The notes under the pieces are model-generated. The model was not told the DNA's origin and did not search any database. It saw only the letters and a list, made by a program, of their open reading frames with translations. Positions 6,384 through 39,256 of a stretch of DNA of 64,000 nucleotides are shown here, one piece after another. The stretch comes from Candidatus Saccharicenans sp. GTDB lineage: Bacteria; Acidobacteriota; Aminicenantia; Aminicenantales; Saccharicenantaceae. Within the stretch, counting starts at the first letter, position 1. The number at the start of each line of letters is the position of its first letter. Position numbers and translations under genes: made by a program. Where the stretch lies: contig JASEIU010000006.1 of assembly GCA_030017715.1 (NCBI GenBank), positions 45,495 through 109,494 of the forward strand, read 5' to 3'.

Positions 6384-6808
6384 CGCTTCCAACCTCGCCT
6401 GCTTCTATTATAATCCCTGGTTATCTAAAAGACATCTCCGTCATTCAGCTCGATTTACCGGTTCTCTTCCATTCCAGACGGAATCTATCCTAAGGAAGGT
6501 CGGCCGGTCAGCTTTCCCGGGCCTTTTCCGCTGACTTATTGAGTCCGATTCGCCCCGAAACTTTGTTATCCGGGCGGAATCCCTTGTCCTGTCACCTCGT
6601 TTTACCCCGGGGACTCATTCCCAAATTGGACAGCGGCAATTCCGGCTCCGGTCCTCGCCTTGATACTTTGCGTCAGTCGAAGCAGCCTTTACCCGCCCCG
6701 GCCAACATATTAAACTGAAAGCCAACTATTCTTTAATCCTTCTTTCTTCTTTTTATCTTCCTTCTTTTAAGGCATCTCTGTTTCCGCGATTGCAGACTAT
6801 AAATTGAA

Positions 6809-6954
6809 GGAGGGTGGCACGGCCTGTCTCCGAACCGCCCGCAGCGGAAGGGGTTCCCCACGGGGGGATGGGTGGAGCGACGATGGGAGGGGGAGCGCCG
6901 TGACAGGCCCCTCCTATTACAAGAGCCGAAACAGAAACAGCAAGAGATGGATTT
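6809..6954 (+). repeat. Structured intergenic repeat, copy 1 (identical to copy 2)
   Basis: 146 bp identical to 7100-7245 and strongly similar to 38321-38460. Nested inverted segments are visible: GGAGG (6809-6813) with CCTCC (6910-6914), CACGGC (6818-6823) with GCCGTG (6897-6902), and CTCC..ACC with GGTGGAG inside. Small hairpins include CCGC/GCGG and GGGG/CCCC. There is no plausible protein. Strand is given only for the orientation shared by all copies. Confidence 0.9.
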
Positions 6955-7099
6955 CAGGAGGCTGGCGCGACCTGACAGCCCCCCTTACAATTTTATCCGG
7001 CAATGAATCGGCAAGGATGCTATATCCGGAGCGAGGCCTGGCCAGGCAGGACGTTCTTTCTAATCCGGGCCAATAAAGAACCGGCGATGAAAGGTTTTC
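6955..7099 (+). repeat. Degenerate repeat unit and spacer between copies 1 and 2
   Basis: 6955-6990 reads like the 5' arm of copy 3 (GAGGCTGGCGCG) joined almost directly to a 3' arm (TGACAGCCCCCCTTACAA), as if the centre of a copy had been lost. 7051-7080 matches 38273-38302 in 27 of 30 positions, so the repeat unit extends about 50 bp upstream of the hairpin in copies 2 and 3. Confidence 0.6.
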
Positions 7100-7245
7100 G
7101 GAGGGTGGCACGGCCTGTCTCCGAACCGCCCGCAGCGGAAGGGGTTCCCCACGGGGGGATGGGTGGAGCGACGATGGGAGGGGGAGCGCCGTGACAGGCC
7201 CCTCCTATTACAAGAGCCGAAACAGAAACAGCAAGAGATGGATTT
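7100..7245 (+). repeat. Structured intergenic repeat, copy 2
   Basis: Base-for-base identical to 6809-6954 over 146 bp. It ends 134 nt before the start codon of the amidotransferase-like gene at 7380. Perfect identity between neighbours implies recent duplication or gene conversion. Confidence 0.9.
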
Positions 7246-7379
7246 GCTGAGGGGGGACGCCGCTACGGGACCCTTTTTCCTATCCGGGCCAAGGCCTGAA
7301 CAAAGATGCCTTCTTCTCCTCAGCGGGTTTGAATGTTCCGCCGCGAAACAATATAATGGCCATCAGGACGGAGGTGACC

Positions 7380-36670: not shown

Positions 36671-38014
36671 TTAACCCACCATAATGCTTTCTTCAATAAA
36701 CTGGTAATGGCCGGCCGGCTTGACCCGGCTGAAGGCATAGAGCATGGTCAACGGCCCGATCCGGCCGAGATACATGGTGATAATCAGGACCAGCTTGCTG
36801 AGGGGGTGAAGATTCGGGGTGATGCCCAGGGACAGGCCGACCGTACCGAAGGCAGACACCACTTCAAACAGAGCTTCTTTTAAGACCAGCTGAGGTTGAA
36901 TTATGAGCAGGGCCATGGTTGAAGCGAAAATCAGCGACATAGCCAGCGAGATCAAGGTATAGGCCCTGGTAATGTCGTCGTTCTTAATGGCTCTGGAGAA
37001 AATTTGAGGCACCTCCTGCCCGTGGATTCGAGACCGCAGGAAGGCAAAGACCACGCCGAAGGTGGTGGTTTTGACGCCGCCGCCGGTCGACCCCGGCGAA
37101 GCCCCGATGAACATGATCAAGATTATCAGCAGCAGAGAAGCCACGGACAGGCTGTTGAGGTCGACCGTGTTGAATCCGGCTGTCCGGGCCGAAACCACCT
37201 GAAAAACCGAAGCCATGACCTTATCCTTGAGAGGCAGATTGGAAAAACCGCGGTCGAATTCCATCAGGAACAGCAGAACGGCTCCGGTCAGTATGATTCC
37301 CAGGGTAATGGCCACCACGAACTTGGTATGGAGCGAAAACTTGACTCTTTCCTTCTTCAGACTGTTTCGGAGGGCCAGTTTTATTTCCTGCAGGACAAAA
37401 AAGCCCAGCCCCCCGAACACTATCAGGAAAATCATGGTCAGGTTGACAAGGGCATCGCCCTGATAGTTCATCAGGCTGTCGGAAAAAAGCGAAAAGCCGG
37501 CGTTGCAGAAGGCCGAAACCGAGTGAAAGACCGAAAGGACCAGGGCCCGGGAAAAAGAGCCCTGTCCTGAGAATTTCAATAAAAGGGCCGCCGTCCCGAT
37601 TAGCTCAAAACTTAAGGTGAACAGGAAGACATCCCTGAGCAAAGCCCGAAAATCCGAAATAGCCGCCGGTCGGAAAGAACCTTCCACCACCAGTTTATCG
37701 GACAGACTGACCCGCCGGCCGGCCGTCATCAGGATGAAGCTGGAAAAAGTCATGATCCCCAGCCCGCCCAGCTGTATTAAGGTCAGCAACACCCCAAGCC
37801 CGAAAGGACTGAAGTAGTTCGGAGTGTCAACCACTATCAACCCGGTGACGCAGATAGCCGAGGCGGAAGTGAAAAGGGCATCAATCAGCGGAATCCGGCC
37901 CGACCGGGTGGACACGGGCAGGTAAAGGATCACAGTCCCGACGATGATGGCCAGCAGGAAACTCAGAGCCAGCAAACGGGGAGGATGCACCAGTTTCTTC
38001 TTAAAATTATTCAA
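36671..38014 (-). CDS. trkH: Potassium uptake membrane subunit TrkH/KtrB
   Basis: 447 residues with four pseudo-repeats of helix-pore loop-helix. Selectivity glycines are seen in SAICVTGLIVVD, SAFCNAGFSLF, SARTAGFNTVD and SAFGTVGLSLG. It conducts K+ with sodium or proton dependence in the inner membrane. The start is TTG at 38014 with AGAGGG just upstream. Same operon as trkA. Confidence 0.95.
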   Translation of the reverse strand: MNNFKKKLVHPPRLLALSFLLAIIVGTVILYLPVSTRSGRIPLIDALFTSASAICVTGLIVVDTPNYFSPFGLGVLLTLIQLGGLGIMTFSSFILMTAGRRVSLSDKLVVEGSFRPAAISDFRALLRDVFLFTLSFELIGTAALLLKFSGQGSFSRALVLSVFHSVSAFCNAGFSLFSDSLMNYQGDALVNLTMIFLIVFGGLGFFVLQEIKLALRNSLKKERVKFSLHTKFVVAITLGIILTGAVLLFLMEFDRGFSNLPLKDKVMASVFQVVSARTAGFNTVDLNSLSVASLLLIILIMFIGASPGSTGGGVKTTTFGVVFAFLRSRIHGQEVPQIFSRAIKNDDITRAYTLISLAMSLIFASTMALLIIQPQLVLKEALFEVVSAFGTVGLSLGITPNLHPLSKLVLIITMYLGRIGPLTMLYAFSRVKPAGHYQFIEESIMVG

Positions 38015-38036
38015 TTTGCCCTCTTATAAGTCCTTA

Positions 38037-38065
38037 ATTAAACCGCTTTTGGTCGCTTCCGTCAA
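38037..38065 (-). promoter_or_regulatory. Putative promoter of trkH-trkA
   Basis: On the minus strand TTGACG (38065-38060), 17-nt spacer, TTTAAT (38042-38037). It gives a leader of about 16 nt containing AGAGGG. Confidence 0.55.
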
Positions 38066-38272
38066 GTCTCCTCGCAGAGAGTGCACCTTCGCGTCCCCCG
38101 TCCGGGAGAGCGTCGAGTCCTTAACGGCCCTGGGCCCCCTGAAGCCGCCTTGCTTTCATAAGCTGCGGCGGTGAGGCCTGGAGGCTTAGGCCCCGCAAGA
38201 GGCCCCATATAAATTCAGCCATTGATGAAGTGGTGAGGATTCCATGTCCGAAACGCAGCACAGCCCGGCCGA

Positions 38273-38302
38273 ACGTTCTTTACAATCCGGGCCAGTAAAG
38301 AA
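38273..38302 (+). repeat. 5' extension of repeat copy 3
   Basis: 30 bp matching 7051-7080, upstream of copy 2, in 27 positions, including the word ATCCGGGCCA. The distance to the hairpin start is similar in both places (18-20 nt). Confidence 0.7.
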
Positions 38303-38320
38303 TTCCAGAGCCAGGATTTT

Positions 38321-38460
38321 CAGAGGCTGGCGCGGCGTGTCTCCGGACCGCCCGCAGCGGAAGGGGTTCCCCACGGGGGATGGGTGGAGCGGGGGTAAGT
38401 CAGGAGGCGCGCCGCGACAGGCCCCTCTTTACAACAAGAGCTGACAGAGAAACAGAGAGG
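38321..38460 (+). repeat. Structured intergenic repeat, copy 3 (diverged)
   Basis: The core of about 54 bp (from TCTCCG to GGTGGAGCG) is nearly identical to copies 1 and 2, and the flanks have diverged. Two pairs changed together: outer arm AGAGG/CCTCT (38322-38326 with 38424-38428) replaces GGAGG/CCTCC, and CGCGGC/GCCGCG (38331-38336 with 38411-38416) replaces CACGGC/GCCGTG. Confidence 0.85.
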
Positions 38461-38549
38461 CCGCGACGCCTGATGACTTTCGCACCGCGACACCCCTCTT
38501 GACGGCGGAAACATGGAGGACGGAAGAGGTGCGACCCGTCCCGGGCTGA

Positions 38550-38578
38550 TTGACAGACTTTCTCCCATATGTTAACTT
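38550..38578 (+). promoter_or_regulatory. Putative promoter of the tol-pal operon
   Basis: Perfect TTGACA (38550-38555), 17-nt spacer, TAACTT (38573-38578; keeps the three most conserved -10 bases). The -10 ends 9 nt before the tolQ ATG, which has no ribosome-binding site, implying a leaderless or nearly leaderless message. Confidence 0.5.
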
Positions 38579-38587
38579 GAAAAAGTC

Positions 38588-39256
38588 ATGAACGTTTTCA
38601 GTCTGATTTCGCAAGCCACCATAGTCGTCAAGCTTATCCTGTTGATTCTGGTCTTTTTTTCCGTTTTTTCCTGGGCCATCATTATCTATAAAAGGCGGAC
38701 CATAAAAGCGGCCGAAGTCTCCTCTCAGAATTTTCTGGAGGTTTTCCGCCGCAGCAAATCTCTTAATGAAGTTAACGAAGCGGCCCGCAAGTACAAGAAC
38801 AGCCCTTTGGCCAGCCTGTTTCAGGCCGGTTTTAAGGAACTGGTACACCTGACCAGGTCTAATCCGCAGGCCCAGGTTTCAATCAACGGCGAAAAGCTGG
38901 AAACCATCAACCGTTCGCTCCTCAGGGCCTCAAACTCTGAAATCAACCGGCTGGAAAGAATGATGAGTTTCCTGGCCACCTGCGGCAGCGTTACCCCGTT
39001 CATCGGTCTGCTGGGAACCGTCTGGGGAATCATGGATTCCTTCCATAAGATCGGGGTGGTCCGTTCGGCCAGCCTGGTCACGGTAGCCCCCGGCATCGCT
39101 GAAGCTTTGATTGCCACCGCCGTGGGCTTGTTCGCCGCCATCCCGGCGGTCATTGCCTACAATTATTTCCTGGGCCGCATCAAAGAAATGATTTCGGCCA
39201 TGGACGATTTCAGTCTTGAATTCTTAAACATCATAGAAAGGGTTTATGGCGGTTAA
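38588..39256 (+). CDS. tolQ: TolQ/ExbB-type proton channel subunit
   Basis: 222 residues, three membrane helices: residues 13-34, about 140-162 and 172-195. The conserved channel stretch GSVTPFIGLLGTVWGIMDSF and ATAVGLFAAIPAVIAYNYF is intact. With TolR it uses the proton motive force to drive TolA. Its neighbours tolR, tolA, tolB, pal and cpoB make the Tol rather than Ton assignment secure. Confidence 0.94.
   Translation: MNVFSLISQATIVVKLILLILVFFSVFSWAIIIYKRRTIKAAEVSSQNFLEVFRRSKSLNEVNEAARKYKNSPLASLFQAGFKELVHLTRSNPQAQVSINGEKLETINRSLLRASNSEINRLERMMSFLATCGSVTPFIGLLGTVWGIMDSFHKIGVVRSASLVTVAPGIAEALIATAVGLFAAIPAVIAYNYFLGRIKEMISAMDDFSLEFLNIIERVYGG

Follow-up and report, generated by a model that had tools for sequence, protein, structure and literature searches.

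The locus examined here raises a simple question: what is a hairpin-forming repeat, present in three copies in a 64,000-nt stretch of Candidatus Saccharicenans DNA (hereafter the window), and why do its stems appear to change in compensating pairs? The first-pass annotation answered that it is either a folded RNA or a mobile element recognised through its hairpin. Its readings of the letters were exact: the outermost stem pair, G/C at 6809/6914, is A/T at 38322/38428 in copy 3, an inner pair, A/T at 6819/6901, is G/C at 38332/38415, and copies 1 and 2, counted from 6809 and 7100, are identical over exactly 146 bases. The arms of an alternative pairing that it described, GGCCTGTC (6821) and GACAGGCC (6902), are both present in copy 1, and GGCCTGTC is absent from copy 3. 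The coordinates of the features are collected in Table 1.

Table 1. Features of the repeat copies in the window and, in the last two rows, of two truncated elements elsewhere in the same genome (genome:contig:positions).
Feature	Position	Strand	Basis or remark
Folded core, copy 1	6809..6914	+	covariance-model match, alignment
Copy 1, P1	6809-6815/6908-6914	+	mapped by hand from alignment columns
Copy 1, asymmetric loop	6816-6817/6903-6907	+	mapped by hand from alignment columns
Copy 1, P2	from 6818/6902 inwards	+	mapped by hand from alignment columns
Copy 1, P3	about 6835-6845/6877-6886	+	mapped by hand from alignment columns
Copy 1, P4	about 6855-6859/6863-6867	+	mapped by hand from alignment columns
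40 nt co-copied with core copy 1	6915..6954	+	6809-6954 = 7100-7245
Short hairpin-like unit GGAGGCTGGCGCGACCTGACAGCCCCCC; core ends without core inside	6957..6984	+	seen in the sequence
Folded core, copy 2	7100..7205	+	covariance-model match, identity to copy 1
40 nt co-copied with core copy 2	7206..7245	+	identity to 6915..6954
Outer inverted repeat, left arm; weak candidate element end	6769..6782	+	14 nt, 93%
Outer inverted repeat, right arm	7299..7312	-	pairs with 6769..6782
Promoter-like TTGAAT-17-TATAAT of downstream gene, beyond the element	7329..7357	+	1 found versus shuffle mean 0.3
Folded core, copy 3	38322..38428	+	between divergent genes 36671-38014 (-) and 38588-39256 (+)
Intergenic region holding copy 3, 573 nt	38015..38587	.	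comparison with relatives
L217: complete ends, 3' half of core missing	G000:C11:364050-364650		duplication TTATTTTT (8/8)
L218: complete ends, same core junction as L217	G000:C12:233730-234330		duplication ACCATTTT/ACTATTTT (7/8)

Core structure and covariation

The core spans about 80-110 nt and is built of P1 (7 pairs), an asymmetric GG/ACAGG loop, P2 (14 pairs), P3 (8) and P4 (5); the inner pairing of our model R1 was set by hand after a C/G change in P3 had been seen. The tip varies in sequence and length (cores of 79 and 90 nt occur), and at locus L073 a core tip near 2736-2759 holds a long hairpin-rich insert. Motifs near the core ends are kept, GGGTGRC being found in 96, [AG]CAGGACC in 84 and GCGAG[CG]AC in 86 of 112 sequences. 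By itself, copy 1 is no more stable than its shuffled versions (z 0.09 and -0.23 on the two strands); for six cores from other genomes the + strand gave z -3.7 to -7.1.

Compensation among the three window copies, from which the first-pass annotation had argued for the fold, is weak alone because two of them are identical, but with relatives added it lies far beyond chance. Among 105 distinct rows, 93.0% of cells were paired, 31 of the 34 pairs had changes on both sides, and 480 cells carried two-sided changes, where shuffles averaged 131 and slid partners gave 79 at most; 85 distinct rows gave 92.3% paired cells and 297 two-sided changes (shuffle mean 84, at most 65 when slid). The count of significant covarying pairs that had been proposed as a check, made with our own tree-aware null in which columns evolved separately, placed 13 of 34 pairs below E 0.05. 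With 104 rows and the structure taken as the prior set, the strongest 13 of 5671 column pairs were all in the structure; a first tree test on 85 rows had put 2 pairs above all null alignments. Taken singly, the two compensatory pairs named in the first-pass annotation fared differently in alignment A3, whose guiding model came from some of the very sequences aligned and which leans towards the structure: 6819/6901 (columns 12/193) is significant at E 0.03, and 6809/6914 (columns 2/207) is not significant alone. The alternative 8-bp pairing is intact in 4 of 28 cores from the window's own genome and 1 of 104 cores from all genomes; its inner 6 bp (CCTGTC/GACAGG) are intact in 14/28 and 9/104, respectively. 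The core fold is real, far beyond chance.

Strand preference

Wobble cells in P2 are predominantly G.T (64 versus 10 A.C, from 79 of 84 sequences, the 5 without anchors being dropped), with a smaller excess in P1 (23 versus 14), and changes from Watson-Crick pairs inferred on the tree led to G.T 90 times and to A.C 56 times (p 0.006). The + strand was the more stable one in 82 of 104 cores. Against a strand-biased reading, P1 closure is nearly equal on the two strands (+, 95/104; -, 93/104). Overall, a two-strand cruciform accounts for the bias less well than RNA or single-stranded DNA of the + strand, two forms that the bias does not tell apart.

These patterns bear on a different account, in which palindrome correction, that is, template switching at quasi-palindromes, produces the compensatory changes incidentally and the fold has no function. 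Compensation alone cannot separate selection from correction, and in several copies the outer stems are self-complementary and peculiar to the copy. Correction should, however, erase the non-complementary GG/ACAGG loop and the mismatches of P3, both of which persist; it predicts no strand bias, whereas G.T exceeds A.C, and unpaired positions are strongly conserved between genera. We consider this account unlikely, and the family offers a test case for selection on a fold versus palindrome correction.

Family size and distribution

A covariance model built from 28 own-genome cores, used for the search of the rest of the genome that the first-pass annotation had suggested, found 62 matches in the 2.89 Mb and 18 contigs of this assembly (G000), and a DNA search found 42 places; paired copies spaced by about 291-295 bp occur again at other places in this genome. 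Of 60 near genomes, counting this one, 23 had family matches, and within the genus matches were present in 7 of 18 other genomes, with none in the remaining 11. Across the phylum, with 9 candidates scored per genome, at least 20 of 396 genomes matched, spread over at least 16 of 210 genera. A 24-base pattern searched in a collection of 84,980 species hit 46 stretches, mostly in records titled Aminicenantes but including two MAGs titled Gammaproteobacteria, one of which (G060) had 73 model matches; 3 of 53 genomes of its order matched, as did, with the same 9 candidates per genome, at least 1 of 398 sampled genomes of its phylum, that one being G060 itself.

A blastn search of plasmids and phages with one 141-base query gave no match, nor did one pattern in viral contigs, and tRNA and tmRNA searches gave no result. 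The Rfam 15 covariance models had no match in the window at the gathering threshold, and nine relative loci compared with Rfam at E up to 5 gave four chance matches, none on the core; the family was likewise not found in open-access literature on repetitive elements or noncoding RNA of Aminicenantes, on MITEs with compensatory structure, or by the core string. The family supplies a seed alignment with strong covariation that Rfam 15 leaves unmatched. We class it among MITE-like elements, set apart by an unusual conserved fold, and not with ERIC, REPIN or attC.

Tandem hairpins in the same direction might recall the attC recombination sites of integrons, and five of the six frames of copy 1 are stop-free, which would suit a coding repeat. 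Integron attC sites carry R-box motifs, RYYYAAC / GTTRRRY, at their hairpin ends; none of 112 sequences had either motif near the core ends. The coding explanation, which the first-pass annotation had named as a possible refutation, found no support either: core lengths fall in all three residue classes modulo 3, and none of the 62 own-genome copies lies in a called gene. Both readings are very improbable.

Genomic setting and empty sites

Gene contexts, taken from a home-made codon-usage gene caller, place 20 of the 62 copies between divergent genes, 9 between convergent genes, 19 in the same direction as their neighbours and 8 in the opposite direction, with one side undetermined in 6. Copy orientation relative to neighbours is not fixed, with a slight same-direction excess in the own genome (19 versus 8, p 0.05); in other genomes the counts were 7 same and 11 opposite (p 0.48), and 1 of 45 copies overlapped a weakly called gene. 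No recurrent neighbour gene emerged among 442 predicted proteins, of which the top 12 clusters, those inspected, were mixed gene families.

These settings weigh on the idea that the repeat is a free-standing non-coding RNA gene or a cis-regulatory leader, independent of transposition. The core does fold like a structured RNA, and the own-genome excess of same-direction neighbours would suit a leader, but 62 dispersed copies, the reversed counts in other genomes and the mixed families of neighbours would not. At copies 1-2 the promoter-like site, with similar sequence recognisable by eye in relatives, lies beyond the element, so that the element is probably outside the 5' UTR of the downstream gene. 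The 5'-UTR reading lacks support, and the broader idea appears highly unlikely.

The region that holds copy 3, 573 nt long here, has no core in G004, where it measures 121 nt, or in G009 and G011, where it measures 171 nt. Among 31 relative loci at the two window sites, some of them cut by contig ends, the model search found a core in one only (G040), and same-genus loci at both sites had none. Insertions differ between species, and with both sites core-less in the same-genus relatives examined, the copies are mobile or mobile-derived. In G040, which belongs to a genus of another family, the core (L152, 1236-1338) lies upstream of the same gene as copies 1-2, which could reflect either chance or a shared site preference.

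Element ends and target duplications

Twelve elements of 357-1034 bp in the own genome have terminal inverted repeats (subfamily ends GGTTCATCTCC), and 8 of the 12 are flanked by 8-bp target duplications matching at 7 or 8 of 8 bases, compared with 9 of 132 cross pairs; the edge is sharp, agreement falling to 0/12 at position 9. Elements of 186 bp with inverted ends in G036 had target duplications in 3 of 4 cases, against 1 of 12 cross pairs. The 152-167 bp elements of G060, which have inverted ends CGGATTATTCATGAACG, showed no target duplication in 17 element rows (both strands of some counted), and G042, from the window's order, showed none at fixed ends in 5 rows. An outer inverted repeat of at least 12 nt was found around 29 of 102 copies (cross control 5/305), and many copies are thus not visibly inside a complete element. 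In L225-L233 of G060, the flanks outside the inverted ends are partly inverted repeats, clearly so in L225 and L233, as if the elements had inserted into palindromes or carried a copy-specific outer stem. At two loci of the own genome (L004 and L007, G000:C11), the ends that otherwise surround the core enclose a second type of inner sequence, TCTCCCGTCGCCCGAAGCC..., which in L007 has a 15-bp direct repeat on its two sides.

The left arm of the outer repeat in the window resembles, by eye, the GCATCTCCGTTTC-type inverted ends of related genomes. The C/T-rich 8-mers that flank this repeat agree at 6 of 8 bases when the ends are fixed and at 7 of 8 when shifts are allowed, a suggestive hint of a target duplication. 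Paired copies in two arrays, that of the window (6809-6954/7100-7245) and L003/L004, are identical over about 147 nt, differ outside the identity and break on the right at one shared sequence, ATGGATTT, a pattern suggestive of local cassette copying. We take the window copies to be older, rearranged members of the family, without a secure target duplication.

Two elements, L217 and L218, retain complete ends around a truncated core. The simplest reading would be that a core-truncated element moved, although two independent deletions are possible; as the duplications at their two sites differ, movement seems not to require an intact core. Across 21 of 21 pairs (7 elements, the pairs being non-independent), the core had diverged less than the rest of the element, 7.9% versus 12.2%, which is what retention of the core on its own account would predict.

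Movement could also be imagined through a nuclease that reads the core on one DNA strand, as in hairpin-recognised single-strand DNA elements of the REPIN/RAYT or IS200/IS605 (HUH) kind. Copies of this family are intergenic and palindromic with a strand-biased fold, Y1_Tnp genes occur in 24 of 26 genomes, and the G060 elements lack target duplications, all of which would agree. However, of the genomes tested, Y1_Tnp genes were present in 13 of the 14 that bear cores and no less in 11 of the 12 that had no core in the near-genome survey; 20 Y1_Tnp loci had no core match, and nhmmer with further loci found none. The 8-bp duplications in two genomes and the truncated-core derivative at two sites further argue against such a nuclease, which we hold to be improbable. 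A RAYT reading lacks support, with no element flanking the gene in the 20 loci searched. A reverse-transcribed element is likewise unsupported: RVT_1 was found in 2 of 26 draft genomes (G002, without cores, and G060, with cores) and not in G000.

The element-end pattern occurs at 32 places in the own genome, and four lone-end regions inspected by eye had no DDE transposase. Neither the end pattern nor the top 12 clusters of neighbour proteins revealed an autonomous partner or transposase.

Interpretation

Of the two answers first proposed, each stands in part: the fold is genuine and favours one strand, and empty sites, inverted ends and 8-bp duplications indicate copies that are mobile or mobile-derived. 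The qualifier "hairpin-recognised" is not supported, given that inverted ends and 8-bp duplications point to a transposase that reads the ends, and that the truncated core occurs at two sites. We favor the reading, with a probability of roughly 0.6, that the copies are non-autonomous MITE-like transposons whose conserved single-strand fold most likely acts as RNA. A transposase encoded elsewhere, a candidate DDE type in view of the 8-bp duplications, would act on the inverted ends and move the elements in trans, and an intact core appears dispensable for transposition. Retention of the core would reflect an action of its single-stranded form, most likely as RNA once a copy is transcribed, and this is the weakest step of the scheme. 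Bound by a protein or processed, the RNA hairpin might alter what becomes of transcripts that pass through the copy, an effect that could make insertions tolerated or useful. We chose an effect on transcripts over catalysis because published MITE-like repeats are reported to alter the transcripts that hold them (PMC3049150), and nothing in our data points to catalysis.

Several observations count against this preferred reading. The 167-bp elements of G060 leave about 33 nt upstream of the core, which is little room for a promoter; duplications are missing in G060 and, at fixed ends, in G042, the search for a transposase found none, the fold of copy 1 is matched by its shuffles, and G040 has a core upstream of the gene that follows copies 1-2. 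We also offer, more tentatively and with less than even confidence, a bolder proposal: the core may represent a class of structured RNA not described so far, in which two internal loops are conserved and the tip is exchangeable. Unrelated MITE families across Acidobacteriota, and in at least one lineage of Gammaproteobacteria, would transport this RNA as cargo, and it would persist by binding a host protein or by catalysis.

Comparison with known systems

MITEs are generally regarded as passive ends that hold no content. If the fold is indeed conserved across genera while the ends differ, small transposons would carry a selected nucleic-acid part. REPIN/RAYT systems are likewise extragenic hairpin elements with many copies; unlike them, this family has target duplications and yielded no link to Y1_Tnp. 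ERIC (RU-1) repeats are described as enterobacterial intergenic sequences of about 127 bp that are palindromic, dispersed, MITE-like and geneless (PMC2759123), and our elements are similarly short, intergenic, palindromic, dispersed, MITE-like and geneless. ERIC insertions duplicate TA in that description (PMC2759123), whereas 8-bp duplications occur here in two genomes; the sequences appear unrelated by eye, and covariation was tested here across genera and two titled phyla. The pneumococcal BOX and RUP elements are modular MITE-like repeats with extensive predicted folds and a proposed effect on co-transcribed genes (PMC3049150). They share with our family the combination of MITE-like character and a folded repeat, but are described there as belonging mainly to one species and its near relatives (PMC3049150), whereas here the inner fold is common to different genera and the outer ends differ.
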